64,000 nucleotides of DNA from Edaphobacter modestus (lineage in GTDB: Bacteria > Acidobacteriota > Terriglobia > Terriglobales > Acidobacteriaceae): the NCBI RefSeq assembly GCF_004217555.1, contig NZ_SHKW01000001.1:3224001-3288000 (forward strand), in the 5' to 3' direction. Position 1 is the stretch's first letter. Each line of letters begins with the position of its first letter. This document shows positions 897 to 38,685 of the stretch, in pieces. The notes below the pieces were generated by a model, which saw nothing but the letters and a program-made list of their open reading frames with translations, made no database searches and was not told where the DNA came from. The position numbers were made by a program, and so were the translations under genes.

Positions 897-1075
897 TTCC
901 TACAGAATGATATCGCATCCAGTCCCAACTAACGCCGGCAATTAGACTGATGGGGCGGATATCCGGTTTGGAAGAGCACCAGTGCATCGTTCTGGATGGA
1001 TCACGCCCACTATAGCTGACCGATATAATTGATTCTTTAGCATCATTGGTCAATACCGGATCAGGGGCTAACGCT

Positions 1076-1213: not shown

Positions 1214-1254
1214 TCGTACGTGGGAAACAGAATTGTTGTCGCGCGAGTCGCTGG

Positions 1255-2682: not shown

Positions 2683-2746
2683 CGCGGTTTTGAAATTCCA
2701 AAACTGGTTGGAGTTCAGAACGACTGCGGTTTGGAGGCGCGGTCAA

Positions 2747-3730: not shown

Positions 3731-3875
3731 CTGCTCTCTCCAGTGGCGTTTTCGTCATAAGCGGTTTACCAACTCGACTCGGACGCGCAAATTCTTTCCG
3801 GCGGAATTTAGGGCGCTCGCGTTAACTTCTTCGTTGGCTATCCGCTGGAACATTTCACAACCTAAAAAAAACTCA

Positions 3876-4166
3876 CTAAGTTTGCTGCTCCTCACGTAGA
3901 TTCCTCATCTCAGATTCGAGCATCAGGCCTATCACTTCTTTTCATACCATGCTTGGCCTTCCAGCCAAGCCGGCTTGCGGACTTGAAGGGTCAAATGCGC
4001 ATCGATCGTGACATACGCATTCCAATCCTTTGCCAATAAGGTCGAACGCTGTCTCAACGAATTGAGTAAGGGGATAATTTTGACCTGTCGCGATGATGTA
4101 GTCTTCCGCTAAGGGTTGCTCAGGCATCGTCGAGGTCGGAAAGCTGCATCGCTTCAAGCAACGATA
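3876..4166 (-). pseudogene. gmd: GDP-mannose 4,6-dehydratase C-terminal remnant, frameshifted
   Basis: Successive pieces of a Gmd C-terminal domain appear on the minus strand in changing frames. EAMQL is followed by EDYIIATGQNYPLTQFVE (compare EDYVIATGxxxSVREFVE), then WNAYVTID, then RLGWKAKHGM, and finally KEVIGLMLESEMRNLREEQ ending at a natural stop at 3876-3878. The order matches the end of the family, but at least three frame changes and an internal deletion separate the pieces. The remnant abuts the end of the GT4 gene at 4154. Together with the N-terminal piece at 1076-1213 it points to a former GDP-deoxyhexose pathway that has been lost and rearranged. Confidence 0.75.
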
Positions 4167-5413
4167 GCGTCCCTAATGCGATGATCCGGCAAGGCTAATG
4201 AGGCGGTTTTCCGGTAAAGGCTTTGAAAACTGGCAGCGGTCTTGTCCATCGAGTATCGCGACAGGACTAGGGTGCCCTTGTCCACAAGATCCTGTCGCAA
4301 TTCTGGAGAATCCAGAACTGCCTTCATCAGACGCGATAGATCCTCGGCCGAATCGGGACTAAAATAAAGGGCTCCATCTCGGCCCACTTCAGGCAGTGTT
4401 GTGGCATTCGAGGAGATCACAGGTAGTCGGGCCTGAAATGCTTCCAAAATTGGGAGCCCAAACCCTTCAAACTTGCTAGGGAATAGCATGGCCGTCGCCG
4501 TCTTAAATATAGCTTGGAGTTGAGTCGAAGCCACAAACCCTAAAAAATGTATTTGCTCAGATATTCCGAGATTCTGCGCTAGGCCGTCGAGCTTGGAGCG
4601 GCGATCAGTTGACGATCCCGTGAAAAACACATGGGGAGCGATGCCGTGCTCGCGTTTGAGGATATGAAGAGCGCGCAGCACAACTTCATGGTTCTTGTGT
4701 GCCCATGTCTTAGCTGGGTAGAAGAAAAACTGAGATGGAAGAGCGTACCTTTCAACGGCGTCTCGTATCTCTTCATCTGATGGATCTTTGTAGGCATCAA
4801 AGACCGATCCCCATGGAGCCACTACCACCTTTTCATCCGGGATGTTGTAGTGCGTAATAATATCCCTTTTAGTCCACTCAGCCTGCACGCAGACAAATTT
4901 TGCTTGCTCACAGAATGCCCGATACCATTTTTCTCGCAGCACGAAATCGTTCTTTGAGAAGAATTCCGGGTAGTGCAAGTGCTGGAGGTCGCAAGGTTGA
5001 AAGATCGCTGGGCACGTTGTTGAATACGCCGTCGGCGATACGAAATGAACCAAGTCAAATCCATTTGATTCGATAAATCCATCTGAAGCCGGAACGTCTG
5101 CGAACTGGACTCTCAGCCGACGCCATAAATTACGAACGGGCGCTACTCCCCGCAGAATGCGTTTAAGCTGCGAGGGTTGGGGCTTTGGAATAGCTGCCAG
5201 ATGACAGGGACCGAATATATGAGGTTCAAGCCAATTCCTCGTGGCCTCATGCACGATGAACGTATATTCCTGATCTTCAATGGATGATCCAGACAATGCA
5301 TGTGCAAGCCATAGCATAGAGGAACCGACGCCTGAATTGGGATCATCGATCCTGCACTCGACGGCAATACGAAGCTTGCGATTGGAGATCATCTGCGCAT
5401 GTTGTTTTATCAT
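4154..5413 (-). CDS. Glycosyltransferase family 4 (GT-B fold)
   Basis: About 419 residues with two Rossmann-like halves. Near residue 270 the sequence HFLGFV opens the nucleotide-sugar-binding half, and AMLFPSKFEGFGLPILEAF near residue 310 is the conserved E(x7)E motif of GT4 retaining transferases. A central YPAKTWAHKNH element corresponds to the usual YPxxxxxHKN donor-site segment. It probably adds one sugar to a lipid-linked repeat unit on the cytoplasmic face. Start: ATG 5413, preceded by GGTGG, is preferred; a GTG at 5431 would add six residues. Its stop touches the gmd remnant and a DUF268 methyltransferase lies 30 bp upstream on the same strand, so the two are likely co-transcribed. 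Confidence 0.85.
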   Translation of the reverse strand: MIKQHAQMISNRKLRIAVECRIDDPNSGVGSSMLWLAHALSGSSIEDQEYTFIVHEATRNWLEPHIFGPCHLAAIPKPQPSQLKRILRGVAPVRNLWRRLRVQFADVPASDGFIESNGFDLVHFVSPTAYSTTCPAIFQPCDLQHLHYPEFFSKNDFVLREKWYRAFCEQAKFVCVQAEWTKRDIITHYNIPDEKVVVAPWGSVFDAYKDPSDEEIRDAVERYALPSQFFFYPAKTWAHKNHEVVLRALHILKREHGIAPHVFFTGSSTDRRSKLDGLAQNLGISEQIHFLGFVASTQLQAIFKTATAMLFPSKFEGFGLPILEAFQARLPVISSNATTLPEVGRDGALYFSPDSAEDLSRLMKAVLDSPELRQDLVDKGTLVLSRYSMDKTAASFQSLYRKTASLALPDHRIRDAIVA

Positions 5414-5443
5414 ACTAACCACCGACAGCACTCTACAGCCTGC

Positions 5444-6226
5444 CTACTTAGTGAATTCAAATAGTCCACAGGCCAGCTCACTCTCTGGAATTTTCAGAGC
5501 ATCTACCTCTTCGTAAATCTGCCCGTCATCTCCAACAAAGGAGAACGATACTAGACGGAGAGAGGAAAAACTATCGAGAATGGTCTTCGGTGCAAAGACC
5601 CGATGCGCGTTGAATTCAACTCGTTCACGGCCGATTGGAACCGAGAAATAGAGCCGTCCGCCTGGAGCCAGCACTCGCTGCAGCGCGTTAATGAACTTGA
5701 AGCAAGCCATCGGGTCAATCGGGTCAGAATATCGCCCCAGTCCAAAATGTTCTGCGGCGTGAAGCGTAGATATCGAATCGACACTGTTGTCTGCCATACT
5801 GCTCAATTCCGTCGCGTCATCTTGCAAAAAACGAAGCCCTGTCAGATTACTTTCCAATCGCCGTATATCTACTACCGTGACGGGCATGAACACTAGCAAA
5901 TGGGCCACGAAGCCGTCTAAGCGCGAACCAATATCAATGTGTTGCGAAGGATGTCGCTCAAATATTTTTCTGGCGGCCCATAAATCCTGATGGAAGTAAT
6001 GGCCACTGGCGACGCCAGCATTGTCTTTCCGGTCGGAAAGAATTGGGAACATGTCCAAAAAGTTCAACCGGAAGGTGGAAGAGGTATTCATCGCTCGGTA
6101 CTTGTACAGATCAATCAGGAAGGATGGCACCCCAAAGAGACTCCGAAAAAATATTCTTGGGTGGAATCCTGTTATGTAGGATTGCCTCTTGAAAAATTGG
6201 CTAAGCATCAAAGGTAATGCTGACAT
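5444..6226 (-). CDS. DUF268-type SAM methyltransferase
   Basis: About 260 residues. SGHYFHQDLWAARKIF followed by HIDIGSRLDGFVAHLL forms the SAM-binding front. VVDIRRLESN is the acidic loop, and STLHAAEHFGLGRYSDPIDP with ALQRVLAPGGRLYFSVP completes a class I methyltransferase core. The HAAEHFGLGRYGDPIDP-like block is the hallmark of DUF268, which is found in polysaccharide clusters. An open frame continues upstream to 6529, but that part is cysteine-rich and unlike a protein. ATG 6226 with GGCAGAG just upstream is the likely start, and ATG 6208 is possible. Its precise role is unknown; methylation of a glycan or lipid-linked intermediate is inferred from context. Confidence 0.75.
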   Translation of the reverse strand: MSALPLMLSQFFKRQSYITGFHPRIFFRSLFGVPSFLIDLYKYRAMNTSSTFRLNFLDMFPILSDRKDNAGVASGHYFHQDLWAARKIFERHPSQHIDIGSRLDGFVAHLLVFMPVTVVDIRRLESNLTGLRFLQDDATELSSMADNSVDSISTLHAAEHFGLGRYSDPIDPMACFKFINALQRVLAPGGRLYFSVPIGRERVEFNAHRVFAPKTILDSFSSLRLVSFSFVGDDGQIYEEVDALKIPESELACGLFEFTK

Positions 6227-6323
6227 ATCTCTGCCGTTGAGGCAACGGCAACATGAGAGATGTGCCATTTGCAAGCATTGAAATACGATTGCGTCGCTGT
6301 AATTAGATCTCCTAATTGGACAC

Positions 6324-6354
6324 CCTCTCGAGACCGAAAGCTGGTCTCGAGAGG
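6324..6354. other. Strong inverted repeat (12-bp arms)
   Basis: CTCTCGAGACC at 6325-6335 and GGTCTCGAGAG at 6343-6353 are exact reverse complements separated by 7 nt, and one more C-G pair extends the stem outward. It lies in the 370-bp space between the divergent DUF268 and GT9 genes. Neither side has a T-run, so it is not a standard terminator. It could be a leader hairpin or a protein-binding site. Confidence 0.6.
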
Positions 6355-6574
6355 TCATAGCGCCTCTGACGCAGTCGCGGGTTTTATGATGGAAAAATTC
6401 GTAGGCCTGTTGGTCACATTGCAAAAAAACGAGCCGGAAATAATGCTCAGGAGAGGAACCGCCCTGTAGGCGTAGGATACGAGGGAAGTACCGCAAGGCG
6501 GCAGCCGGTAGGGCTGAACTATGGTTCATATACCTGACAGGACAAGGCTTAAACGGCCTGTGTAGTGGTAGGCT

Positions 6575-6580
6575 TATAAT
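6575..6580 (+). promoter_or_regulatory. Candidate -10 box for the GT9 gene
   Basis: An exact TATAAT lies 24 bp before the preferred GT9 start at 6604. No convincing -35 box is seen at 17 bp (the region reads ACGGCC), so this is only a candidate. Confidence 0.35.
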
Positions 6581-6603
6581 AGCGCACCCTACTAAGGATG
6601 GCG

Positions 6604-7689
6604 ATGACAGAGCAACGTAGAATTCTTATACTGCAGGCACACAATTTAGGGGATGCGGTGATCAGCACCGCACTGATTGAAACGATTGCGCGTGGCCTTC
6701 CCTCTGCACAAATTGACGTTCTGACCAGACCAGAGATTCATTCGATATTTGCACACAACCCATCCGTGAATTGTGTCCATACAGGGCGTTTCCCGATGGG
6801 TTCTGTTCGTGACTTTGGACTAAGGGAGATGTCCGCTCTCCCTCGTTTGATCGGCAGGTTACGCCACCGAGAATATACCGACATTGTCAATCTCGCGGGC
6901 GATTTTCGTGAGGAATTTCTGGGAAAATTGATTTCGCACCGGGACAATTGGAGTCCTGCGTGGTCAGCTGACCATGCCTGCGGTCAAGTAATTCGGCGCT
7001 CAGCCATCCCCTTTGCCAATCGACCGATATTCATACCTGCGAACAAGCCCAACATCTATGACGCGGCATCCATCGTGGGAAGTGCGGTGAGCGGTGCGGA
7101 GGGGCGGAAATCTGCCCTTTACTCGCCTGCAAAGAAGAGGATCGTCTGGAATCCTCTAGAGAACGTTGTAGGCATTCATCCTATGGCAAGTCAGCCTTGG
7201 AGAAGATGGGAGATGGAGAAATGGCAATCTCTTGCTCGACACTTGGTCGCCCGAGACATGGATGTGCACGTATTCGGCTCCCCTTCGGAGAAGGAAGAGC
7301 TAGTTAGATACTTCGGCACCTTGGATAGTTCGAGAATAAGAATAGTGACAGGTGGTCTTTCCGATTGTTTCGTAGCGATCTCGAGACTGCGCGTGTTGCT
7401 TTGCCATGATAGTTTTGCCTCGCACGTAGCCTACGCTCTGGGCGTTCCTACAATCCTTTTGAATGGAGCCAACGATGCAGCAGCCTGGGCTCCGCCCGGA
7501 GCCGTGGTTCTCGCTGCTGGACCGAGCCTGACATGCTACCCATGCTACAACCGCCCCACGTGTTTCGGCGGGTCCAATGAGTATGCTTGTATTCGGCACA
7601 TTGAAATCGTTTCAGTAATAGAGGCAGTTTGCGACCTACTGAGAATTACTTCCAGTGATCGGCACATTGTTCCCCTACTCCAGGTGTGA
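6604..7689 (+). CDS. Glycosyltransferase family 9 (heptosyltransferase-like)
   Basis: About 361 residues. RRILILQAHNLGDAVISTALI at the N-terminus is the GT9 signature (ILxxxxxGDxxxxxP), VVGIHPMASQPWRRWEMEKW in the middle is the donor-binding GxxPxxxxxxKxW region, and LLCHDSFASHVAYALGVPTI is the conserved D-S-x-x-x-H-x-A-A motif. ATG 6604 sits 6 nt after AAGG and is preferred to ATG 6598. GT9 enzymes transfer heptose or related sugars from ADP- or nucleotide-activated donors in LPS or exopolysaccharide assembly. The natural end is probably near DLLRIT; the last ten or so residues (about 7655-7689) are encoded by the abutting IS110 remnant, so its stop codon comes from the insertion scar. Confidence 0.82.
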   Translation: MTEQRRILILQAHNLGDAVISTALIETIARGLPSAQIDVLTRPEIHSIFAHNPSVNCVHTGRFPMGSVRDFGLREMSALPRLIGRLRHREYTDIVNLAGDFREEFLGKLISHRDNWSPAWSADHACGQVIRRSAIPFANRPIFIPANKPNIYDAASIVGSAVSGAEGRKSALYSPAKKRIVWNPLENVVGIHPMASQPWRRWEMEKWQSLARHLVARDMDVHVFGSPSEKEELVRYFGTLDSSRIRIVTGGLSDCFVAISRLRVLLCHDSFASHVAYALGVPTILLNGANDAAAWAPPGAVVLAAGPSLTCYPCYNRPTCFGGSNEYACIRHIEIVSVIEAVCDLLRITSSDRHIVPLLQV

Positions 7690-8158
7690 GGCTGCGGAAG
7701 ATGCCGTAGATGGCGTGCAGCAGTTTTCCTGCGACGGCGATGAGCGGTTGGAGTTTGGCCTTGTGGCGGCTCTGCAGCAGCTCGTAGATGGCCTTCATGT
7801 GCCTGTCGCGTTGTGCGGCCACCAGCGCGGGCATGCCTCGTGCGCCGGATCCAGCCCGCCATGCGCGACCCACTGCCGCACCGACATCTCCTCCGACAGC
7901 GGAGACAGACTCGACCAGCGCTGGGCATCCGCCTTGTCGGTCTTCGAGCGCCGGATCGCCTGCGCGAACCGGTTCACGGCCTTCCGGTTCAGCACCGCAA
8001 CCTCGATGCCTGCGGCGAACGCCAGCGCCAGACCCAGCGAGTAGATGCCCGTCGCTTCCAGCGCCACACGTAGATTCCTGTGATCGAAGAGAACTACCTC
8101 CATCACATTTTGCCGCAATGACTGGCGCATATTCCAAGTGCAAGAGCGGTACACTCAT
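7655..8158 (-). mobile_element. IS110-family transposase remnant
   Basis: Minus-strand fragments of one IS110 transposase lie in three frames. RQNVMEVVLFDHRNLRVALEATGIYSLGL leads into EVAVLNRKAVNRFAQA and RRSKTDKADAQ, the DEDD RuvC-like domain with its linker, on 8130-7960. Then come VRQWVAHGGLDP and, in another frame, NRHxKAIYELLQSRHK-like and AGKLLHAIYGIFRSL, the C-terminal end (7800-7665). The middle of the protein (coiled coil and most of the catalytic-serine domain) is deleted and at least two frameshifts remain, so it is inactive. The first 80 bp of the frame belong to repeat R1. The remnant's 3' end runs into the GT9 gene. Confidence 0.75.
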
Positions 8159-8286
8159 CAGCTTTTCCCTGTTTCGATAATTGCTCTAAATTACGGTCGC
8201 TTAGCTACTTAGGGCTACACTCAATTACGCCAGTATTTCTTTTATTTTCATAGACTTACATCGTTTAGTCAAAACTCATAATCCCT
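8074..8286. repeat. Dispersed repeat R1 (IS110 5' end)
   Basis: 213 bp that recur at 32629-32840 (R3) at roughly 90% identity by eye, in the same orientation; part also recurs at 10051-10159 (R2). The left 80 bp encode the start of the IS110 transposase on the minus strand, and the right 130 bp are non-coding. It ends in AAAACTCATAATCCCT, whose last twelve bases match a CAT anticodon loop and the 3' side of its stem. IS110 elements carry bridge RNA in such a non-coding end, so this stretch may have encoded one; that is inference. Confidence 0.7.
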
Positions 8287-8360
8287 GAATTGCGCTCAAC
8301 TCCCGTTGAGTACGGTCCATTACTCTAAACTTCCGCGAAGCATTGCCGGAGATTCACTAA

Positions 8361-8437
8361 GGGCCCATAGCTCAATTGGTTAGAGCAGAGTGCTCATAAC
8401 GCTTTGGTTCCAGGTTCAAGTCCTGGCGGGCCCTCCA
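8361..8437 (+). tRNA. tRNA with CAT anticodon (Met or Ile2)
   Basis: A full cloverleaf can be drawn. The acceptor GGGCCCA pairs with CGGGCCC (one A-C mismatch at the base), the D arm is GCTC...GAGC, the anticodon stem GAGTG/CGCTT encloses the loop CTCATAA, the variable loop is TGGTT, and the T arm is CCAGG TTCAAGT CCTGG. The encoded end is TCCA. It could be elongator tRNA-Met or the lysidine-modified tRNA-Ile; sequence alone does not decide. It lies 75 bp to the right of repeat R1, next to the toxin-antitoxin pair, a typical neighbourhood for integrated elements. Confidence 0.88.
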
Positions 8438-8491
8438 GCTTCTCTAGAACACGGAGGTGCTCGTACGGTACAGTGTCGAATCCCCTCGCGT

Positions 8492-8576: not shown

Positions 8577-9029
8577 ATGTCTCCTACCGCTGTCCTCACG
8601 CCCGAGATTCCTTCAGAAGCCGAAGCTGTGCTCGCCAAGCAGACCAAGGAGATCCTCGCCCCGCGCATAGGAAAGAATGCGTCGCTCGATCTGCGCGCTA
8701 TGAATTTCGCATCGGAGCCAACGGTGAAAATACCAGCTTCAGCGGCGCGTCTTCTGGTCCAGATCCTGGATGAAATGAGCCGTGGCAACGCTGTCAAAAT
8801 CGTGCCGGTTCATGCGGAACTTACGACACAGGAGGCAGCGGACCTGCTGAACGTATCGCGTCCAACTCTGATCCAGATGCTTGACCAAGGGCATATCCCG
8901 TTCCGAAAGGTGGGAACGCATCGGCGCATCTCATTTGCGAAGGCTATGGAGTACAAGAGAAAGCTCGAATCAGACCGAAAGGCCGCACTCGCCGAATTGG
9001 TGGCCTACGATCAGGAGATCGGCCTCTGA
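8577..9029 (+). CDS. HTH (excisionase-family) antitoxin
   Basis: 150 residues. Residues about 82-110 carry LTTQEAADLLNVSRPTLIQMLDQGHIPFRKVGTHRRI-like sequence, a MerR/excisionase-type helix-turn-helix (HTH_17) with its wing. The N-terminal half is a charged dimerisation or toxin-contact region without a known fold. The PIN-domain gene begins 3 bp after the stop, the arrangement of HTH/PIN toxin-antitoxin modules in which this protein represses the operon and neutralises the nuclease. AGAGGTGAACC gives a good ribosome-binding site before ATG 8577. The pair lies between the tRNA and repeat R2 and may stabilise the region. Confidence 0.8.
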   Translation: MSPTAVLTPEIPSEAEAVLAKQTKEILAPRIGKNASLDLRAMNFASEPTVKIPASAARLLVQILDEMSRGNAVKIVPVHAELTTQEAADLLNVSRPTLIQMLDQGHIPFRKVGTHRRISFAKAMEYKRKLESDRKAALAELVAYDQEIGL

Positions 9030-9032
9030 TCC

Positions 9033-9563
9033 ATGCCGCCATTCACTGCCTTTCTTGATGCCAACATTCTCTATCCCGCCGAACTCCGGAGCTTTTTGAT
9101 GTTCCTGGCAGTGCCGGGGATCTTTCGCGCCCGATGGTCTGACGATGTTCATGAGGAGTGGATCTCGAACCTGCTCGAGAGGCGTCCGGACCTAACTAGA
9201 AGTCAGCTCGAACGCACACGGCAACTGATGGACAAGCACGCTCCCGATGCCCTAGTTACCGGATACCGGCAATTAGTGTCGGCTCTGAATCTACCCGACC
9301 CCGATGACCGACATGTCCTGGCTGCTGTCGTCCGCGGCGGTGCTAGCGTGATTGTCACCAACAATACCAAGGACTTTCCTGCCGAGGCGCTTGAGGAGTT
9401 CGAGATTGAAGCGCAAACTCCAGACGAGTTCATTCACCACCTTATCGACTTGTACCCCGGCGAGATACTACAAGCCGCCGAGACCCATCGAGCGAGTCTT
9501 TCGCAATCCGCCGAAGACTCGCGAAGAATACTTAAGCACACTCGAAAGACAGGGGCTGATTGA
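9033..9563 (+). CDS. PIN-domain toxin with C-terminal frameshift
   Basis: 176 residues as encoded. FLDANILYP near the N-terminus supplies the first PIN aspartate, DPDDRHVLAAVVRGGAS the second acidic cluster, and IVTNNTKDFP the third, so the ribonuclease core looks intact. The last 29 residues are abnormal. From about 9499, the +1 frame reads FRNPPKTREEYLSTLERQGL and continues to a stop at 9604-9606, the tail normally found in this toxin group. Removing one T from CTTT at 9498-9501 restores a 190-residue protein. Either the toxin is damaged, or this is a sequencing or slippage site. The tail is outside the catalytic core, so residual activity is possible. Confidence 0.75.
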   Translation: MPPFTAFLDANILYPAELRSFLMFLAVPGIFRARWSDDVHEEWISNLLERRPDLTRSQLERTRQLMDKHAPDALVTGYRQLVSALNLPDPDDRHVLAAVVRGGASVIVTNNTKDFPAEALEEFEIEAQTPDEFIHHLIDLYPGEILQAAETHRASLSQSAEDSRRILKHTRKTGAD

Positions 9564-9606: not shown

Positions 9607-10050
9607 GTCGCCTTAAGCTCATCAGGGGAAGCGCTCGGAAATCTAGAAAGCTCCCTCAAGAATTGCGCGGAATCATTGCCGCTAATAGGGGCTCGCAGCG
9701 CGCAACGCCAGAAGTAAGCTCGCTTTGATCGAAGAACCCTCATCTAACCAGATTTCGCGAACAAAGGGAGGGAGCCTCTCTGGATCTCGTTGGGGTAGGT
9801 CTTGTCCAAAACGTAGGACACATGGACACTATTGAGATCTATCAGCCAGCGACTGATGGGGGAATCAGAAAGGCATGTTTTCACAATATTGGTTGATGAT
9901 CATATTAGCGGTCGCGCGGCTTCGATCACGCTCATCAGTCACGGACGGCATTATCGCGCAGAGTTCGTGGTATAACCCATTGAGAAGTGAGGTATCTCGT
10001 GACTGCATAATCTCACACCTTATGCGGTTCATTCGTGCCTTGAGTAGCTA
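9607..10050. other. Non-coding scar region
   Basis: No convincing gene in either direction. Short frames here have poor composition and no recognisable motif. The region separates the toxin gene from repeat R2 and probably consists of decayed sequence. Confidence 0.5.
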
Positions 10051-10159
10051 CACACGTCAGCTGTTTCGCTTAAACAGAACTGCCCTAAATTACCCTCCCT
10101 CGGCTACTTAGGATTACGCCCGATTGCGGTCACATTTCTTGTATTATCATAGACTTACA
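10051..10159. repeat. Dispersed repeat R2 (diverged partial copy)
   Basis: About 109 bp, alignable with the non-coding right part of R1 and R3. Shared blocks include CTGTTTCG, CTAAATTAC, GGCTACTTAGG (AGCTACTTAGG in R1) and CATAGACTTACA. It lacks both the transposase-coding left part and the tRNA-like right end, and it is clearly older or more diverged than R1 and R3. Same orientation as the other two. Confidence 0.55.
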
Positions 10160-10738
10160 GGGATATCCGGAAAGTCATTTGAACCAGGGCGTCGAGCTTA
10201 GCCGTTGCCGCCTTGCTTTTCTTCAAGCGCTTGAGTTCATCTTCGAGGTCAACCACAACCGCCTTTATTTCAGCTACTTCATCCAGCAAGGGTTGCATTT
10301 TCTTGCGAGGCCGCGACACGGCGGGTAGCAAAATCGATCGACCACGAGTAACGGCTGTCACCTTCTGGCGTTCCACATTGTTTGAGCATTCGGGCGTAGC
10401 TAGACGCGGAGCTAATTTTCGGAATCGTTGAGTCCGATCGGAGTTGATTACCGTTCGTGAGCGCTAAATACACTCGCGTTTTGCGTTCCGCCAAGTCCCA
10501 CCTTGGCGTGCCCGGCCAGCTTAGAAGAAAATAACGCTAAAGTCATTGCGCAGACGTGAATATCAAGCATCGCAGTCTTTGCGGTGACACTCATGCGTAC
10601 AAATGACTGGCGTTCATGTGGATGCTCTCCGACAATACACGCCCTATCCCCTATATCCAATCAAGCCACCCTTATCTTCGTTTGGCACAGATGTCCATAA
10701 AATGGTCTTACTACGCGCCGAGTACGGAGAGGAGACTC
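10160..10738. other. Intergenic, no supported gene
   Basis: A 73-codon minus-strand frame (10155-10376) has a lysine-rich heptad pattern but no homologue I know and overlaps R2. Nothing else is convincing. GCCAAGTCCCACCTTGGC near 10490 is a short imperfect palindrome. A purine-rich ribosome-binding site (GGAGAGGAG) for the next gene closes the region. Confidence 0.4.
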
Positions 10739-12954: not shown

Positions 12955-15900
12955 ATGACAAATAGCAAGACTTGTTTTTCTTTCTGCCGTCGAAACTCCA
13001 TATGCTTTTTAAACATTTTGTTGGCGATCGTCATTACCGCAGTCTTAGGATCAGTCCTCGGTTGCGCTAGTAGTGGAGCGAGCAGCACATCCCAAGCCAC
13101 ATCCCCCGCCAAAGTCGTCTATCCCCAGACGACGATCACAGCAGCGGTAGGACAAGCGATCACAGCCGACACCCCAACTGTTACGGGAACGGCTACATCC
13201 TATGCCGTCAGTCCGGCGCTTCCCGCAGGCTTGAGCCTGAACACTTCCACAGGAGCAATCTCCGGAACCCCAACCGCCGTCGCTACTCAGGCAACTTACA
13301 CCATCACCGCGAGTAACTCGGCCGGATCCACCTCCGCGACTATCCAGGTTACCGTCAACTCTGCAGTTGTACCTCCTTCCAACCTTGTCTATCCCCAGAC
13401 GACGATCACAGCAGCGGTAGGACAAGCGATCACAGCCGACACCCCAACTGTTACGGGAACGGCTACATCCTATGCCGTCAGTCCGGCGCTTCCCGCAGGC
13501 TTGAGCCTGAACACTTCCACAGGAGCAATCTCCGGCATGCCAACCGCCGCCGCTGCCCAGGCAACTTACACCATCACCGCGAGTAACTCGGCCGGATCCA
13601 CCTCCGCGACTATCCAGATTACAGTCAGCTCTGCAGTTGTACCTCCTTCCAGCCTGGTCTATCCCCAGACGACGATCACAGCAACGGTAGGACAAGCGAT
13701 CACAGCCGACACCCCCACTCTTACGGGAACGGTTACATCCTATGCCGTCAGTCCGGCGCTTCCCGCCGGCTTGAGCCTGAGCACTTCCACAGGAGTAATC
13801 TCCGGAACGCCCACTACTATTGCTGTCCAGGCGCCTTATACCGTCACCGCGAGTAACTCGGCCGGATCTACCTCAACGACTATCCAGATCGCCGTGAACG
13901 CGGCACTCGCCCTCCCTTCTAATCTGACCTATCCCCAGACGACGATTATTGCGACGGTTGGGCAGGCAATTATCTCTGACATTCCCGGCGTTACGGGAAC
14001 AGTGACGTCCTATGCTGCCACTCCGGCACTTCCCGCAGGCTTGAGCCTGAGCAGTTCCACGGGCGCCATCTCTGGAACGCCTACTGCCGTTACTGCTCAA
14101 GCAGCCTATACGGTTACCGCATCAAACTCGGCGGGAAGCACGACGGCAGTTGTGACGATAGCGGTAAACAAAGCCTTGGCGACTCTGCTCGACCTGGGTC
14201 ACTCTGCTCAAATCAAACTGCTGCGAACCACGACAACTCGTGTCCTCAGTCAGGACAACTCTGGTCACTGGGCACTGTGGGACTACACTTCGGGTACGGA
14301 ACTTGCCAGTGGCGATCAATATTTCCCCGGCCCCTCTGGGGCCCATACCTACCCATTTTACTGGCCAGTAGACATGGCTGGACAGACTGTCGCAATCGGA
14401 CAGACAAATGGGTTAGAGGTTCGTTCCTCATCCGACGGTCATCTTCTCTCCACCATCATCTCCCCCGCAATGATCGACCCAACTGATTCCACTGTGGGAA
14501 ATGCCTGGTGGAAGTTGGCTTCGGATGGCAGCTACATATGCGCTGGCTCCCAGGCAGGTCTCTCCGTCTGGGCACCCACCGGCCAACTCCTCGTCTCCCG
14601 TCAAGGAGACTACTCCGCCGCGAATACCTTTGCCGCGCCGGGCGAAGTGCGTGTTGCAGATGGGGCTGCGGGCGAGAACGTCGTCGAGACTATCTCAACT
14701 TCAACCGGAACATCTTCTATCGGTCCGGCATTCTCCGGGCAGTTCAACTCCTGGTTCCTCGATGGAGAGCGCTTCCTGACAAACACGGGCACCGCCGTCT
14801 GGACATATTCGAAATCCAGCGTCCAAGAGGCTATCGTTTCGTTCCCAACGGTCGAAAACCTGACCGGACAAGGAAACTGGGTTTGGACCTACGCGTCAAA
14901 CACCACCGGATCTCCGTTGGCAATCTATCCGGTCGGCGGAAACTCTCCTGCTGCAACCTACAACCTGAGCGCTTCCGCCGCAGTCATCCCTTCAGGAACG
15001 ACCATCGGTGTGCTTTCTTACGGAACTGCGGCGAGTAGCGTGATCGATCTGTCGGGTTCGACGCTGTCGAAGGCAGACTACACTCTACCCGTCGCGTTTC
15101 TGTCCGCGTATGCTGCAACCTCTACCTCTCAGTGGCTTGCGGGAAATACTCATGGAGTTGTCCTCGACGGATCAAGCTTGTCGACTACACCTCGCTACCT
15201 TGGACTGGGTATAGCCTGGAGCATCTCCGGTGCTGCAGGTAGGGCGGCAGTCGCCACCGCGAGCGGCAAAATCCTCTACTTCGATCCGGCCCTGAGCACG
15301 CCACAGGGAGCCATCAGCTTCTCGAGTTCGAAGATAGTGCTCTCATCGGACGGGACCGTGCTTGCCTCCGCGGCCAATGCAACCGATGCCCAATATGAGA
15401 CCGATCGAACTCTCAACTTCTACTCACTTCCGGCAAATACCCTAACCACTAGCATCCCCTACCAGTTTTTGCAGGGCACGCCGAATCTGTATGATTTCTC
15501 TCTCTCCAGTTCCGGCACGATGCTCGGTCAAGTTCTGGGAACATACAACGGGACAACATCAACCTATGTTCGGCAGGTCGCGCCGGTCAGCGGCGGACCC
15601 ACAGTATGGTCGGATAACCCACCCGATCCCAACAATGCAATCCAACTCTCGCCGGACGGTACCCTGATCGCCGTCTCAAGTGGCTCCGGTAGCTCAACTT
15701 CCGGTACGAACATCTTAAAAAACGGTCTGTTAGTCACGGCGGTTCCAGGTTGGGTAGTCGGCTGGATCGACGACAATCGAGTCCTCGTAAACAACTATGC
15801 AGCCTATACCAACGCCTATTCGAACTCTGCAATCTATGACGCCACAGGCACGAAACTTGCCACCACAACCCTCCCGGAGCTGCTGCGAATTCAGCCGGTT

Positions 15901-32628: not shown

Positions 32629-32840
32629 ATTCCTGTTATCGAAGAGAACATGCCTCCATCACATTTTGGGCACTGACTGGCGCATATCCGAGTGCAATAG
32701 CGGTACACTCACCAGCTTTTCCCTGTTTCGATAAATTGCTCTAAATTACGGTCGCTCAGCTACTTAGGGCTATACTCAATTACGCCGGCATTTCTTTTAT
32801 TTCATAGACTTACATCGTTGGGTCAAAACTCATAATCCCT
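32629..32840. repeat. Dispersed repeat R3 (solo IS110 5' end)
   Basis: 212 bp, roughly 90% identical by eye to R1 (8074-8286) and in the same orientation. The left part corresponds to the first codons of the IS110 transposase on the minus strand (MRQSV...), but no transposase body follows. The right part is non-coding and ends in AAAACTCATAATCCCT. From the next base the sequence continues as a tRNA 3' half, unlike R1. Confidence 0.75.
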
Positions 32841-32872
32841 TGGTTGGGGGTTCAAATCCCTCCGGCCCACCA
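32830..32872 (+). pseudogene. 3' half of a CAT-anticodon tRNA
   Basis: The sequence from CTCATAA runs through TCCCT (3' anticodon stem), TGGTT (variable loop), GGGGG TTCAAAT CCCTC (T arm) to CGGCCCACCA, an acceptor 3' strand with encoded CCA that is one base short. The acceptor 5' strand, the D arm and the 5' anticodon stem (expected AGGGA) are missing and replaced by repeat R3. It is a tRNA interrupted in the anticodon loop, a common attachment point for integrating elements. Its T arm differs from that of the intact tRNA at 8361-8437, so it came from another gene. Confidence 0.75.
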
Positions 32873-33025
32873 AAATCCAAGTTCACAAACCAAATAAGGC
32901 ACGCAGGCGGAACCGCGCCTCATCGTTTCGGGGCCCTCATCATTTCGCAATGGTGAGTTACTCGAGACGGCTTCGAATAGGTGCGAGACTGGAAGGTGAA
33001 ATATCCAGGAAGGAGTCCGAGCGGC

Positions 33026-33976
33026 TTGATTATCAGGAATTTTGAATATTTGCTGGCATTGAATAAGGAAAGACACTTCGCGCGGGCCGCTGCTGCCTGC
33101 AGGGTATCGCAACCCACCCTGTCCGCGGGGATCAAGCAGCTGGAAGAGGATATGGACGTGCTGATCGTGAAACGCGGCCAACGGTTTGAGGGCTTCACGC
33201 GCGAGGGCGAACGCGTGCTGGCGTGGGCGCAGCAGATGCTCGAAGACTGCACGCGGTTGAAGCAGGAGCTGCACGTGCTGCGCGATCATGCCATGCAGGG
33301 TCCATTTCGTCTGGGGATGTTGGCAGCAACCTCAGCACTGGCCTCCGTGCTGAGCGTGGCGTTCGCGGAAAAATTTCCGGAGTTGCAAATCTCGATGGAG
33401 ACAGGTGACCCGGAGCGCCTGTTGCAGAGGGTGCGGCAGGGCGAGATGGATGTGGCGCTGATGTATCTGGACGAGCCAGTGAGCGAGGGGCTGGATGGAT
33501 ATGCACTCTATCGGGAGCGTCTGTTTCTCGTGACAACGGGGGACGCAGGCAACGGTCGTCGCGTGTCATGGGAGGAGGTGGCGACATTACCGCTGTGCCT
33601 GTTGCGGTCGGCTGTCCCACGCACTGCGGAGACACAACTGAATAAAGCCCCCAAGGTGATCCATACGGATTCGGCAGCAGTGATGGCCGCGCATGTGGGG
33701 ACGGGACGGTGGTCCACGGTGCTTCCTCAGTCGCTCGTAACGATGTTGGCGAAGACGCCTGCTCTGCGGGCGATCGCGATTGCAAAGCCCGGCGAGCAGG
33801 TGAATGTGGGATTTGTGACGGTGAAGAGCGACCCATTGCCTGCTGCCGTGCATGCCCTCATGGAGATGGCGCACACCCCGGAGCTGGTCGATGCAATACG
33901 CGCGATGCTCGAGACCTATAAGAACTATCAGCCAAAGGATTCCCGCAGGGTCAGTGCGCCGAAGCAGCAGTCCTGA
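33026..33976 (+). CDS. LysR-family transcriptional regulator
   Basis: 316 residues from TTG 33026, which has AGGAAGGAG 10 nt upstream and gives the usual LysR length; GTG 32981 would add fifteen residues. FEYLLALNKERHFARAAAACRVSQPTLSAGIKQLEEDM is the winged helix-turn-helix, and the substrate-binding domain starts near PFRLGMLAATSALASVL. It precedes hxlB and hxlA on the same strand, so it probably controls that pair in response to a metabolite such as formaldehyde or a sugar phosphate. The effector is inferred from position only. Note KxLxRxGQxF-like VKRGQRFEGFT in place of the more common RxxRxVxLT. Confidence 0.85.
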   Translation: MIIRNFEYLLALNKERHFARAAAACRVSQPTLSAGIKQLEEDMDVLIVKRGQRFEGFTREGERVLAWAQQMLEDCTRLKQELHVLRDHAMQGPFRLGMLAATSALASVLSVAFAEKFPELQISMETGDPERLLQRVRQGEMDVALMYLDEPVSEGLDGYALYRERLFLVTTGDAGNGRRVSWEEVATLPLCLLRSAVPRTAETQLNKAPKVIHTDSAAVMAAHVGTGRWSTVLPQSLVTMLAKTPALRAIAIAKPGEQVNVGFVTVKSDPLPAAVHALMEMAHTPELVDAIRAMLETYKNYQPKDSRRVSAPKQQS

Positions 33977-34100
33977 ATTCTCTGCATCGACCCTGAGCTG
34001 CTCCATCGATTGAAAAAAAACTATCGATTGAAAAAAGCTATCAGCAGATTTGAATTTCCTGTTTGATCGGCGCAAACCGCGATGCGACTCTGAATGAGTG

Positions 34101-34679
34101 ATGTTCAACCATTGTGTCGAAATACCGAGTTATTCGTCTTCCCAGGTACTCCTGCTGAAAGAACTGGACCGCACTCTTGCCGCGGTGAATGAAGCAGAGA
34201 TCGCTGTTGCGCGCGAGATGATTCTTCTGGCCAGGCGCGTCTTCGTGACTGGCGCCGGGCGCAGCGGACTGGCGCTGAAGATGGCTGCCATGCGCCTCAT
34301 GCATCTGGGGCTGGTCGTGCATGTAGCTGGTGAGGTGACGGCCCCGGCCATCGGTCAGGGAGATCTGCTACTCGTGGCCTCGGGATCGGGCACCACGGCA
34401 GGCGCAGTGCATGCGGCTGAAGTGGCACGAAACGTTCAAGCACAGGTCCTCGTGCTCACCGCCGCGCCCGCATCGAAGCTCGGCCAACTGGCGCAAGGCT
34501 TGATCGTGATTCCGGCAGCCACCAAGCAGGACCACGGCGGAGTGAGGTCCGAGCAGTATTCGGGAGCGTTGTTTGAGCAAAGTGTGCTGCTGGTGATGGA
34601 CGCACTATTTCAGGTGATGTGGCACGAACGCGGAGAGAGCGCGGAGCAGCTGTGGAAGCGCCACGCGAATCTGGAATAA
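34101..34679 (+). CDS. hxlB: 6-phospho-3-hexuloisomerase
   Basis: 192 residues of single SIS-domain fold. VFVTGAGRSGLALKMAAMRLMHLG is the conserved phosphosugar-binding entry, LLLVASGSGTTAGAVHAAEVA the second SIS motif, and SEQYSGALFEQSVLLVMDAL the C-terminal helix of HxlB/PHI proteins. It converts D-arabino-3-hexulose 6-phosphate to fructose 6-phosphate, the second step of the ribulose monophosphate pathway. ATG 34101 is preferred to GTG 34098. It lies 124 bp after the LysR gene and 91 bp before hxlA. In methylotrophs the order is often hxlA-hxlB or a fusion; here they are separate and reversed. Confidence 0.9.
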   Translation: MFNHCVEIPSYSSSQVLLLKELDRTLAAVNEAEIAVAREMILLARRVFVTGAGRSGLALKMAAMRLMHLGLVVHVAGEVTAPAIGQGDLLLVASGSGTTAGAVHAAEVARNVQAQVLVLTAAPASKLGQLAQGLIVIPAATKQDHGGVRSEQYSGALFEQSVLLVMDALFQVMWHERGESAEQLWKRHANLE

Positions 34680-34770
34680 CGTCTTCCCCTTTGGCAGACC
34701 CTTCGCGGGCTTATCTCGGCTAGTTGGTATCATCGCTGATTTTTTCAATACTTAGAAACGGAGTACAAAA

Positions 34771-35403
34771 ATGAAACTGCAGGTTGCAATAGATCTACTC
34801 TCGACGGCGGATGCGCTGGCGTTGCTTAACAAGGTTGCGGAACACGTAGATGTGATCGAGCTGGGAACCCCTCTTATCAAACAGCAGGGACTGAGCGTCG
34901 TTACAAATGTGAAGGCGGCGTATCCTGACAAGCTGGTGTTTGCAGACATGAAGACCATGGATGCGGGCGAGCTCGAAGCCGACCTCGCGTTCAAGGCAGG
35001 GGCGGATATTATGACCGTGCTGGCTACAGCGGCTGACAGCACCATTGCCGGCGCGGTGAAGGCAGGCAAAGCGCACGGCAAGGCAGTCGTGGCCGACATG
35101 ATCGGTGTAGCGGATAAGGCTGCGCGGCTTCACGAGCTGAAGGCCATGGGCGTGAGCTGGGTTGAACTGCATGCGGGGCTCGATGAGCAGGCGCAGGCAG
35201 GCTATTCGATTGAGAAACTGCTCGAGGTCGGGCGCAGTGCCGACATGCCATTCTCGGTTGCCGGCGGCATCAACGCAGAGCGCATCGGAGGGGTCGAATC
35301 TGCAGGTGCAACCATTGCGGTTGCCGGTGCCGCGATCTATGGCGCAAAAGATCCCGGAGCCGCAGCTGCAGGTCTTCGGAAGAAGATCAAGCAACTGGGA
35401 TAA
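34771..35403 (+). CDS. hxlA: 3-hexulose-6-phosphate synthase
   Basis: 210 residues, the full length of the family. LQVAIDLLSTADALAL and VIELGTPLIKQQG are beta-1/beta-2 of the orotidine-decarboxylase-like barrel, and FADMKTMDAGELEADLAFKAGAD has the D-x-K-x-x-D catalytic motif. VELHAGLDEQ and FSVAGGINAERI complete the phosphate site. It condenses formaldehyde with ribulose 5-phosphate; in non-methylotrophs it detoxifies formaldehyde or, in reverse, makes pentose phosphates. GGAGTACAAAA gives a clear ribosome-binding site before ATG 34771. KGPDC in ascorbate use is a close relative, but the neighbouring hxlB favours the synthase. Confidence 0.92.
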   Translation: MKLQVAIDLLSTADALALLNKVAEHVDVIELGTPLIKQQGLSVVTNVKAAYPDKLVFADMKTMDAGELEADLAFKAGADIMTVLATAADSTIAGAVKAGKAHGKAVVADMIGVADKAARLHELKAMGVSWVELHAGLDEQAQAGYSIEKLLEVGRSADMPFSVAGGINAERIGGVESAGATIAVAGAAIYGAKDPGAAAAGLRKKIKQLG

Positions 35404-35488
35404 GCAGGAGCATCCATCCGAGAGGAGATGGCGCTCCATCGCGCTGTCTCCTCTTTTTCATTCGAGCGACCAGGTGGATGGCTTCGCG

Positions 35489-36817
35489 CTAATCCCGCCC
35501 AATCGCGTGTTGCATCTTCTCAAGTGAGATCCGCGCTGTCTCCGGATAGTAAAACCAGACCAGAAACAGATCCAGCACCATCATGCTCGCGAAGAAGAAA
35601 AAAGGAACCGCCCCCGACGACTTCGCCAGCAACGGAAAGACTAGCGAGATGATCGCATTCGTGATCCAGTGCGAGGAGCTGCCCAGGCTCTGCCCTTTAG
35701 CGCGCATCCGTGTCGGAAAGACTTCGCTGATATAAACCCAGACCACGGCCCCGTGAGAGATCGCGAAGAATGCGATGTACAGCATCAGGAACCAGACAAT
35801 CAAATTTAGATGCTGGTGCGTGTAGAACATGTAACCGATCGCTGAAAGACATCCGACCAGGCCAACCGTTCCGGTAAGCAGCAGCTTCTTTCGTCCCAGG
35901 CGATCGATGACCGACATTGCAATCAGCGTGGCCACCAGGTTGGTAGCGCCTACCGCAACCGCCTGCAGATTACCGGAGACCTTCGTCGCCCCGGCCAGCG
36001 TGAAGATGTCGTTGAGATAGTAAAGAACCGCATTGATCCCGGTAAGCTGACAGAACATTCCCACCGTAATCGCGAGGAACACAGGAAGTCGGAACTTCCG
36101 CGCTGTCAGCGATTCGCGTCCTCCCTGCCCCTCTTCGCGCAGCGATTGAACAATTTCCTCCAGCTCTCGCGTGGGATCTTCCACTCCCGTAAGGCGCAGG
36201 ATATCCAAAGCCTCGCTGTTCCTTGACTGCGTCAAAAGCCAGCGTGGACTTCGCGGTATGAAGAAGAGGGCGATGAGAAAAAGAGCTGCGGGAAGCGCGG
36301 CAATTCCAAGCTGCCATCTCCACTCCGCTGCGCCGAGGGATAAAGTTCCCAAAAGATAGTTGGAGATGTAAGCCAGCAGAATACCGACAACTACGTTCAC
36401 CTGAAAAAATCCCACCAGCCGGCCCCGCCAATGTGCCGGCGCAATCTCGGCGATATACATGGGACCAAGTACCGACGAACCGCCAATCCCCAATCCTCCG
36501 ATGAAGCGAAAGAAGATGAGCGACGACAGGTTCCACGCAAGGGCACAGCCGATCGCAGAGATGACATAAAAGGCTGCCATCGCTCGCAGGCTGTCTCGTC
36601 GGCCGTATCTCTGACCGGGAATACCCGCAAAGATCGCGCCGATCACGGTACCCCAGAGCGCACTCGCCACGGTAAAGCCGAGCGCGGCTTCAGACAAATG
36701 AAACTGCTGGGTCAGCGCGGCCGTCGTTCCGGAGATCACTGCGGTATCGAACCCGAAGAGAAGCCCGCCAAGGGCTCCGACGATCGTGCTCTTGATGACG
36801 TGAGACGACAACTTCAT
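35489..36817 (-). CDS. Sugar porter family MFS transporter
   Basis: 442 residues from ATG 36817 with AGGAG 5 nt upstream; the frame is open 61 codons further but lacks transporter sequence there. Twelve membrane helices. Diagnostic sugar-porter motifs are GFDTAVISGT in helix 1, GQRYGRRDSLR in loop 2-3, PMYIAEIAPAHWRGRLVGFFQ in helix 4, PRSPRWLL before the central loop, QLTGINAVLYYLNDIF in helix 7, DRLGRKKLLL, and PETAR near the end. It is a proton-coupled or facilitative hexose/pentose uptake protein of the XylE/GalP type. It converges with hxlA and may import the sugar feeding the pentose phosphate pool; the substrate is unknown. Confidence 0.92.
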   Translation of the reverse strand: MKLSSHVIKSTIVGALGGLLFGFDTAVISGTTAALTQQFHLSEAALGFTVASALWGTVIGAIFAGIPGQRYGRRDSLRAMAAFYVISAIGCALAWNLSSLIFFRFIGGLGIGGSSVLGPMYIAEIAPAHWRGRLVGFFQVNVVVGILLAYISNYLLGTLSLGAAEWRWQLGIAALPAALFLIALFFIPRSPRWLLTQSRNSEALDILRLTGVEDPTRELEEIVQSLREEGQGGRESLTARKFRLPVFLAITVGMFCQLTGINAVLYYLNDIFTLAGATKVSGNLQAVAVGATNLVATLIAMSVIDRLGRKKLLLTGTVGLVGCLSAIGYMFYTHQHLNLIVWFLMLYIAFFAISHGAVVWVYISEVFPTRMRAKGQSLGSSSHWITNAIISLVFPLLAKSSGAVPFFFFASMMVLDLFLVWFYYPETARISLEKMQHAIGRD

Positions 36818-36914
36818 AGCATCTCCTGAAACACTCAAACCCACCACGACACGGCACTGGCGGAAATACGATCCAACCGGCTCTCCGTCTGAATGACGAA
36901 CCACAAGCCGCGAA

Positions 36915-38054
36915 TCAACGCGGTTGAGGATCGCCCTCTTTCTGTGGCTGCTTGGCATTGCCGGGGCCACCCACAGCCTGCAAGGCAGGAATGCGCTCAC
37001 TCATCTCCGTCAACGGTGGAAAAGGCATATGGGGTTCGGCCTGATACCAGTACGCGACGGAGTAGAAGTTGTCCGAGCGAGCATTACCATGTCCATGCTC
37101 GATGCTTGCCTTCATGGACTTCGTAAACGGGATCGGGGAATCGAGATGAAACCGATACACGCTTGACCGCGATCCTGCGAGTTCCTGCCCCACAACCGGT
37201 GAACCATGCAGCGGGAAGCTTTGCGAGCCGCCGAAGTCCCATGCACCTAAAAAATAGTCCTCCGACCCCGTCCCGACCATCGTCGGAACCGCCCCGTCAT
37301 CCACTTCGAACCGGTCGTTTCCCTCGCCCCACCACCCATCCTGATTCTGCAGTACCGACATGGTCACGCCAATGAACTGTCCGTGCCCCTTTGCCTCAAA
37401 CCAGGTGTAGTTGTCCTTGCCATCCGGATTGCGCCGGTAGTTCACTCGCGGGTCGCCATTGTCATACCAGTCTGAAACCCACCCATGATTCGGCTGGGCC
37501 TGCCTGTACTGCGCATGAAAATACAGCGTCCCGACAGGCAAAGGCTTCGTATCCTGCCGATAGTCGATATTCCAGTACAGATTGCTCAGCGATTGCTTGC
37601 CTTCATTGGTCACCGTGATGCGAGCATGTTTTGCATACGGCATCTGGAAGTAGCTGTTGAGCGAACGATCGCTCCCGGCCGACAGCACCGGCGAGGACCA
37701 GAAGTAATACTGCCCCGTGCCTAAACCGAAGAAGTCGCCGATCGGCGTCTCCACGCTGGGCGTGTCTTCTCCATCCCAGTACATCCGCAGCACAATTCGT
37801 TTCAGGTGGTAGCTCTCCGGAGAGTTCAGCGTGAACCAGATATGCGAGATCCTTCCAGGACCATCGACATCGAGAATGGTCAACGTCTGACCCGGCGTGA
37901 GCGTGCGAAAATCTGCGTTCGCTCCCGTCGCCTCACGGCTTGAGGACCGATGCATCGTATAAGTCTGTTGCACGGTGGGGTCAGGAAATCCCTCCATGCC
38001 CTGACCGTGGGCAAAGCACGACACCAGAACGACGGATAGGGCAAGCAGCTTCAT
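36915..38054 (-). CDS. GH172-type (DUF2961) secreted protein
   Basis: 379 residues from ATG 38054 with GGAGGT upstream. A signal peptide (KLLALSVVLVSCFAHGQG) is followed by the double jelly-roll family now called GH172. DVDGPGRISHIWFTL, VLRMYWDGEDTPSVETPIGDFFG, WFEAKGHGQFIGVT, EGNDRFEVDDG and GTGSEDYFLGAWDFGG are its conserved blocks, with the acidic residues near the last two proposed as catalytic. Known members act on difructose dianhydride, arabinofuranosides or fructofuranosides. It is 97 bp upstream of the sugar porter on the same strand, so a degrade-and-import unit is likely. The periplasm or cell surface is the expected site. Confidence 0.87.
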   Translation of the reverse strand: MKLLALSVVLVSCFAHGQGMEGFPDPTVQQTYTMHRSSSREATGANADFRTLTPGQTLTILDVDGPGRISHIWFTLNSPESYHLKRIVLRMYWDGEDTPSVETPIGDFFGLGTGQYYFWSSPVLSAGSDRSLNSYFQMPYAKHARITVTNEGKQSLSNLYWNIDYRQDTKPLPVGTLYFHAQYRQAQPNHGWVSDWYDNGDPRVNYRRNPDGKDNYTWFEAKGHGQFIGVTMSVLQNQDGWWGEGNDRFEVDDGAVPTMVGTGSEDYFLGAWDFGGSQSFPLHGSPVVGQELAGSRSSVYRFHLDSPIPFTKSMKASIEHGHGNARSDNFYSVAYWYQAEPHMPFPPLTEMSERIPALQAVGGPGNAKQPQKEGDPQPR

Positions 38055-38196
38055 GCGGGACCAACCTCCGATAGTTTCCACCCGTAATATTGCCTATCGA
38101 GGTGCCGCCGCGACAACAAGAAGTGCTGCAAGCTCCATCTTTTTAAGGTTGTGCCGAACCTGAGAAGTCATCCATTGCTCGTCTCCGCAACAGATG

Positions 38197-38685
38197 TCAG
38201 TTGTACCCCAGCTCATGAGGAGCAGGATAGGTCAGCGTGCGGTCTTTCTTCTCGTACCACATAAACAGCTTGTGATCGCCATTCACCCGCACTGCGACGA
38301 TGATCCCCGTTCCAAACGTCCCCGTCCCATCCGTCTTTGAAATATCCACGTGATGCGACTTGATCGGCCCCACCGGGCTCGCCGTCGTCCAGTCTTCCGT
38401 GAATCGCTGCAGCGTATAGTCGTACTTCTGCGGGTGCTTCTGCCAGTCCGGATCGCTCATCCACAGCGCATACGCCTGGTTATAGTCCTTCGCCTCCAGC
38501 GCCTGAAAAAACTTATCTACTTTATGCTCCGCCGGAAGGTTGGTGTAGAACCACCCATGTCCCGTCAGATATCCACCCACTCCCACCACAGCGGCGATCA
38601 GAATCAGTGCGATCCCCCCAATCACCAGGCCTGTCTTGCGCCGCTCCCGGCCCGCATCGTACGTCGGTGCATTCAGCAGAGTCAT
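38197..38685 (-). CDS. Membrane-anchored hypothetical protein
   Basis: 162 residues. A cytoplasmic basic start (GRERRKTG) leads into one membrane helix (LVIGGIALILIAAVVGVGGYL), then a small extracytoplasmic domain beginning HKVDKFFQALEAKDYNQAYALW and ending in VRVNGDHKLFMWYEKKDRTLTY. The helical pair followed by a beta sheet suggests an NTF2/DUF4878-like fold, but I do not recognise a named family with certainty. It sits 143 bp upstream of the GH172 gene on the same strand. Function unknown. Confidence 0.7.
   Translation of the reverse strand: MTLLNAPTYDAGRERRKTGLVIGGIALILIAAVVGVGGYLTGHGWFYTNLPAEHKVDKFFQALEAKDYNQAYALWMSDPDWQKHPQKYDYTLQRFTEDWTTASPVGPIKSHHVDISKTDGTGTFGTGIIVAVRVNGDHKLFMWYEKKDRTLTYPAPHELGYN

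Follow-up and report, generated by a model that had tools for sequence, protein, structure and literature searches.

A tandem pair of putative genomic islands at tRNA-Ile2(CAT) of Edaphobacter modestus, the second carrying a candidate replacement tRNA and no detected integrase

In the Islander model, genomic islands lie in tRNA genes and carry a tyrosine integrase, and tandem islands are known (PMC4383910). The tRNA-dependent lysogeny of actinobacteriophages, described in mBio in 2024, has tRNA-Ile2-CAT and tRNA-Leu-CAA among its targets, and its spread outside actinobacteriophages, according to its authors, needs study (PMC10865867); tRNA replacement by the Lactobacillus prophage Lj965 is cited in the same source. 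In prophage-related sequences of Sinorhizobium meliloti, integration puts a host tRNA out of action and a carried one takes its place (PMC11476347), while such replacement was not seen in phiLM21-like prophages (PMC12429752); the cases in these two sources are prophage-related, and the passages that present them describe neither integrase-less islands nor tandem arrays. Here we analyse a stretch of 64,000 nucleotides of Edaphobacter modestus (the window; C1:3224001-3288000 of a genome labelled G000) that contains three repeats, R1 to R3, the last of which runs into half a tRNA gene. We consider it probable, at roughly 85%, that two islands are inserted in tandem in the anticodon loop of tRNA-Ile2(CAT), and that R3 is the right attachment junction (attR) of the second. 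This second island may rely on an integrase supplied in trans and bring a replacement tRNA. Integrase-less islands mobilised in trans, called hitchers or CIMEs, have ends that are recognised by the integrase of a relative, and we know of no hitcher or CIME with a complete replacement tRNA. A literature search by titles and abstracts, with subscription journals mostly outside its scope, returned no integrase-less non-phage island doing tRNA replacement.

The two islands compare differently with these systems. Island 1 resembles those of the Islander model in its restored tRNA, adjacent integrase, displaced 3' fragment and crossover in the anticodon region, whereas in island 2 the tRNA is not restored and no integrase was detected (model as outlined in PMC4383910). 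The nearest known kind to island 2 among the sources cited is tRNA-dependent lysogeny, with which it shares a short core, a tRNA that is not rebuilt, a cognate tRNA carried and a host tRNA otherwise in single copy, the second likeness being read from the genomes G073, G145 and, with a decayed 5' half, G057; in G000 itself the 5' half now belongs to the island 1 junction. However, the elements described in that work are phages with their own integrase (PMC10865867), whereas island 2 is a cargo island with neither phage families nor an integrase among its scanned proteins. It also differs from them by its tandem position next to a conventional island at the same site, its occurrence in Acidobacteriota, the distance of 74 bp between core and tRNA, and the non-matching anticodon stem of that tRNA. 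Replacement of a tRNA being known from phages, what appears to be new in these sequences is its association with non-phage cargo islands, without a detected integrase, in tandem arrays.

Two islands joined at one tRNA gene

R3 (32691-32828, forward strand, delimited by arm alignment) is the right arm of the island 2 attachment site. It is followed by 44 nucleotides (32829-32872, forward strand) that run from an anticodon loop through the stem, variable loop and T arm to the CCA, ending at 32872, and that share 96% identity (E 4.8e-14) with the 3' half of an intact tRNA gene at C1:3207472-3207546. This gene lies on the same strand 49.3 kb upstream of R3, outside the window. The displaced half (C1:3256829-3256872) has the same orientation as the intact gene and is reached only past island 2, as in a tandem arrangement; it begins with a 12-bp core, CTCATAATCCCT, and core and half together constitute attR. 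A search for the core allowing up to one mismatch (expectation 0.15 per shuffle) gave two exact copies in the window, at 8275-8286 and 32829-32840, preceded by R1 and R3 respectively. R1 and R3 are 91% identical over query positions 26-241, and their homology begins near 8070 on the R1 side and near 32625 on the R3 side.

The first-pass annotation, made from the letters of the window, had described at R3 a tRNA gene interrupted in its anticodon loop. The letters and the match to the intact gene bear out the 12-base end joined to a tRNA 3' half and the junction within the loop, as well as the presence of the same 12-base end in R1 without a tRNA tail. The repeat itself also stands, with its homology start moved to near 32625. 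A simple interruption of the tRNA was rejected, the gene being intact upstream. Neither ARAGORN nor Rfam calls a tRNA at R3, because only half of one is there. The acceptor stem of this half is one G short (CGGCCC vs CGGGCCC in the intact gene), and ARAGORN recognises a tRNA when the half is joined in silico to the 5' half, though with one base fewer than usual. In a relative, G044, the left-flank methyltransferase found in G000 is followed by an intact tRNA-Ile2, and this tRNA is the only match to the R3 query. On these sequences R3 is an attR, at which an integrated island ends on its right side, because its tail is the 3' half of the intact gene, the two halves rejoin as a tRNA, and the tRNA of G044 is intact.

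The intact gene has a CAT anticodon and is labelled Met by ARAGORN. Its class is assigned by elimination and likeness: among the 30 of 50 tRNA matches covered, two further genes with a CAT anticodon suit the elongator and initiator forms of tRNA-Met, which leaves tRNA-Ile2 as the reading for this one, and its sequence features also point to Ile2. The next gene encodes a tyrosine integrase (L070 1598-2800; PF00589, E 7.8e-31), the type of enzyme to which the annotation had pointed. Island 1 extends from C1:3207503 to 3232274 (24.8 kb), and its right-hand part occupies positions 1-8274 of the window (forward strand), with the integrase and the intact tRNA outside. Homology to R3 and the arm alignment identify R1 (8137-8274, forward strand) as the right arm of its attachment site, and the core at 8275-8286 (forward strand; core search and arm alignment) as the junction of island 1 with island 2. 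Hence R1 and R3 are both att-type junctions, one of the two possibilities raised at first pass. Island 1 appears to be a conventional tyrosine-integrase island, whose left end supplies the tRNA with a new 3' half. The tRNA-Ile2 gene completed in this way has CCG as its last bases (C1:3207544-3207547); the displaced half and most listed relatives end in CCA.

Island 2 extends from C1:3232275 to 3256828 (8275-32828 of the window), 24.6 kb. Its left end, from the core to the carried tRNA (8287-8360, forward strand), has counterparts in G073, G057, G145 (three copies) and G161, and scores 58 against the G073 and G145 references (shuffle maximum 22). The complete tRNA-Ile2(CAT)-like gene that it carries (8361-8437, forward strand; Rfam 60.3 bits) starts 74 bp beyond the core, and the layout elsewhere is likewise core, about 75 nt and complete tRNA-Ile2. 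The passage from R1 through the core to 8287 is a tandem junction, because the same left end is conserved elsewhere after a host 5' half or a right arm. Moreover, a paired arm-type motif, RGTRCN5CGGTACASTS, occurs exactly three times in the window, in the R1 arm (8137-8156, forward strand), at the left end of island 2 (8456-8475, forward strand) and in the R3 arm (32691-32710), and in none of 100 shuffles.

Island 2 starts at the R1 core, appears to restore nothing and brings a complete tRNA-Ile2, and the unit of R1, core and left end has the layout of the attachment site (attP) of an excised circle. From this we infer the following course. A tyrosine integrase of the island 1 family would act in trans on the arm motifs near either end of island 2, with strand exchange inside the 12-bp core. 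The carried tRNA, on which the host would then depend, would take the place of the destroyed host tRNA, and its changed anticodon stem would keep it from being the next target.

Arms, cores and host tRNAs in other genomes

The right arm could be aligned in 16 copies from 11 genomes of four genera, the alignment leaving aside R2, G000:C1:2114189 (28 bases), G049:C1:2875910, G073:C47:35378 and two short G042 matches. The last bases of every aligned arm are AAA or AGA, after which the sequence reads CTCA[T/A]A[A/C]TC. What comes next is the 3' half of a tRNA-Ile2 in four cases (R3 of G000, G073, G089 and, in degenerate form, G062, which is of the same genus as G000), that of a Leu(CAA)-like tRNA in eight, some of them degenerate, and a left end with a carried tRNA in the remaining four (R1 of G000, twice in G145, and G161). 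ARAGORN found no whole tRNA in the five Leu(CAA)-like loci scanned. The Ile2 and Leu(CAA) targets are one anticodon-loop base apart, and in G161 the core has TCCGT instead of TCCCT, as does the stem of its host tRNA. The first-pass annotation had held that recurrence of the R3-tRNA join at many unrelated positions would speak against an insertion; the join does recur, 12 of the 16 aligned arms running into tRNA halves, and this is what an attachment site predicts. Two right-arm remnants joined to Leu(CAA)-like 3' halves in G000 itself (L071, C1:115638-115781; L072, C3:192222-192345) are probably left over from sister islands in a different tRNA gene.

The host tRNA is cut in several relatives. 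In G073, contig C24 finishes with an intact host 5' half and, after it, the left end; contig C97 begins with the identical 127 bp and, 52.5 kb on, has the right arm, core and host 3' half. The host halves, once joined, read as a tRNA with small changes, like those of G000. The 127-bp overlap starts at the core, and a contig break at that point would be consistent with another arrangement being present in the sample, for example an excised circle or a tandem copy. In G057, the left end follows a decayed 5' half, at the chromosomal locus occupied in G000. G145 has three copies: the first after a 5' half, the second 34.0 kb on after a right arm and core, and the third about 21.6 kb further, after a right arm with a decayed core. 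In G161, the left end comes after a right arm and core. The stretch before it in that genome (G161:C1:1071273-1074161) leads over 2.7 kb from an intact tRNA-Ile2 with an arm motif to the next right arm, with no integrase found, and is perhaps a gutted conventional island preceding the tRNA-carrying one. In addition, 5' halves of tRNA-Ile2 lie some kb from the intact copy at G006:C30:30430, G054:C1:1094907, G047:C1:2865586, G077:C5:341895 and in G145 near C1:5633390, some with integrase genes or remnants nearby, and islands seem to enter the same anticodon loop from the 5' side there.

The arm motif also links these sites to the integrase. We took the best 80 of 273 relatives of the island 1 integrase, in named genomes; they are 68-83% identical, come from Acidobacteriota and Beta- and Gammaproteobacteria, and lie mostly at CAT or Leu(CAA) tRNAs. 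The upstream tRNA is CAT in 41 (Met and Ile2 not separated), Leu CAA in 26, Leu TAA in two and Lys in two; five of the other loci have a core-bearing half only and four have no tRNA. Of the 80 loci, 49 have the motif in the 300 nt that precede the integrase gene, and the 934,796 bases searched hold no further occurrence.

No phage or plasmid record held the unit of R1, core and left end over 80% of the query, and the matches listed (20 of 158 phage and 20 of 30 plasmid records) comprise the tRNA and at most about 10 adjoining bases. No viral contig contained an exact 28-base left-end pattern, one that does not fit even the copy in G000.

The carried tRNA and the cargo of island 2

At 60.3 Rfam bits, vs 72.8 for the restored gene, the carried tRNA of G000 is the lowest of the eight tRNAs compared (a ninth, chimaeric match was set aside), and with its A7-C66 mismatch and U73 it seems to be decaying. 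The carried copy of G161, where an intact host gene is also kept, scores 63.6 bits. By an exact pattern, which would miss altered copies, tRNA-Ile2 has a single match in 57 of the 62 genomes of the genus, two in G000 and none in four. Only the carried type is present, by the same pattern, in G057, G073 and G021, with 73.4, 70.3 and 69.5 bits respectively; the left-end score of G021 is not significant. The low scores in G000 and G161, two cases only, fit relaxed selection.

Among 75 upstream regions compared with the left end, seven scored high, three of these being the references themselves. The anticodon stems of the seven carried tRNAs are GAGCA/TGCTT (four), GAGTG/CGCTT (two) and GGGTG/CGCCT (one). 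The TCC stem that follows the loop in the core is thus found in none of the seven vs 55 of the 68 others (Fisher p 4e-5, a test that treats related genes as independent, on 75 sequences that may hold one gene with different flanks). Such a changed stem may protect the carried tRNA from the integrase. An alternative is that the tRNA originated in a lineage with such stems, because five tRNA-Ile2 genes without a significant left end, in G111, G084, G226, G225 and G158, share GAGCA; in G084 and G225 a 5' half lies 112-114 nt ahead of the gene.

No recombinase was found among the 15 open reading frames (ORFs) of at least 140 aa scanned in island 2 (8577-31691). Integrase profile, motif scan and tblastn likewise detected none in island 2, the G073 element or the tRNA-carrying elements of G145, while the known integrases of G000 island 1, G062 and G064 were recovered by these scans. 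A remnant of an integrase in G145 is situated outside the elements, immediately ahead of the 5' half that the first element follows. Pfam matches assign to island 2 an antitoxin/toxin-like pair of an HTH_17 and a PIN_3 protein (8577-9563, forward strand), followed by cargo at 10616-31691 that includes a pectate-lyase-like protein, an Ig-repeat protein, a methyltransferase, an epimerase, Wzy_C, WecG, a sugar transferase, GT4, Polysacc_synt_3, Wzz, Wzi and Poly_export/SLBB, among them genes of exopolysaccharide synthesis and export. The G073 element encodes mainly sugar and other catabolism together with IS110 genes, and the G145 elements varied metabolism and transport. No phage families appear in the Pfam matches of the ORFs covered (15 of 15 listed in G000, 30 of 32 in G073 and 9 of 27 in G145).

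A degraded right-arm copy, R2 (10049-10186, forward strand), recognised by arm similarity and without arm motif or readable core, lies 1.8 kb into island 2; it resembles the Leu-type arm and may mark another boundary. A gene for a 1102-aa protein, whose Ig-like domains are of the He_PIG type, contains four direct repeats with 270-bp spacing (13117-14226). Beyond R3, genes for LysR, SIS-domain and hexulose-phosphate-synthase-like proteins (32874-38200) have no counterpart at this locus in the stretches of G044 and G057 compared, and are possibly another insertion.

Competing readings and what the islands would mean

Several observations weigh against a tandem of a conventional island and one mobilised in trans. 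The strict arm motif is absent from 31 of the 80 integrase loci, and its loose form too in eight. It occurs at only three of seven left ends with a carried tRNA (five in loose form) and seven of 16 right arms (13 in loose form). The exact empty site was not recovered, so that the comparison with relatives proposed at first pass succeeded in part only: in G044, about 14 kb of other DNA separates the tRNA from the conserved right flank. The right ends of G057, G161 and the last G145 element were not found in the stretches examined. Moreover, G073 is a draft genome, whose left junction rests on the 127-bp overlap, at which alternative paths may have been open to the assembler. Finally, R2 could be the right end of a small tRNA-carrying unit, which would make 8275-32828 composite, and the integrase of island 2 may have been lost rather than never present. 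LysR, tried as a marker of the empty site, matched in five of the 62 genus genomes including G000, and lay in the other four on a different contig from the tRNA or 147 kb away, so that it gave no exact empty site.

The possible loss of the integrase underlies the competitor that survives best. Island 2 would be a formerly autonomous tRNA-carrying element that lost its integrase, with no mobilisation in trans. Islands do decay, R2 and the IS110 piece described below would be signs of erosion, and the phages of the known kind, as presented, carry their own integrase (PMC10865867). However, loss would have to account for the lack of a detected integrase in island 2 of G000, in the 52.5-kb element of G073 and in two G145 elements of 34.0 and about 21.6 kb, with differing cargo, and we regard this explanation as rather unlikely.

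It is quite improbable that the whole is a single ordinary integrase island of 49.3 kb at tRNA-Ile2, in which R1 arose by duplication of the right arm within the island and the tRNA gene at 8361 is chance cargo, even if a single intact tRNA, integrase and displaced 3' half would suffice for it. G073, G057, G145 and G161 share the conserved left end with a carried tRNA that comes after the R1 core, which also disfavours R1 as a duplicate; in G073, G145 and G057 this left end comes directly after a host 5' half (decayed in G057), and the R1 core has an arm motif on either side.

R3 as the end of an IS110-type transposon, with tRNA sequence as its target or as part of it, a reading that the first-pass annotation had entertained, has next to no likelihood and is disfavoured: in its favour are a transposase piece (7795-8154, reverse strand; PF01548, E 1e-9) that adjoins and overlaps R1, outside the attachment site as defined, and the IS110 genes inside the G073 element, but this piece at R1 is a fragment, the conserved arm occurs at 16 places (IS110 genes not searched at each) always ending at a tRNA-type core, and the arm bears the motif found beside the tyrosine integrase, as an integrase attachment site.

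Returning to the tandem of a conventional and a tRNA-carrying island, a broader proposal is that there is a family of integrase-less cargo islands which spread with the borrowed integrase of conventional islands at the same tRNA, destroy a single-copy host tRNA and stay indispensable through a replacement whose anticodon stem is recoded and so of no use to the integrase; its odds are somewhat short of even. An Islander search needs an integrase and a tRNA fragment for each island, as described in PMC4383910, so the left boundary of island 2 would be missed by it, and island finders of this design would probably overlook such islands. If the arrangement is as proposed, the strategy of tRNA replacement extends from phages to non-phage cargo islands and to another phylum. 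It would also give a concrete route for the horizontal turnover of a tRNA gene thought to be essential. tRNA-Ile2 reads AUA. On the broader proposal, loss of the island would be lethal, and the carried tRNA could permanently replace the host gene, which may have happened in G057, G073 and G021. This suggests a toxin-free form of addiction, in which the island is retained as the holder of the sole tRNA-Ile2, and a reason why tandem arrays build up at one tRNA.
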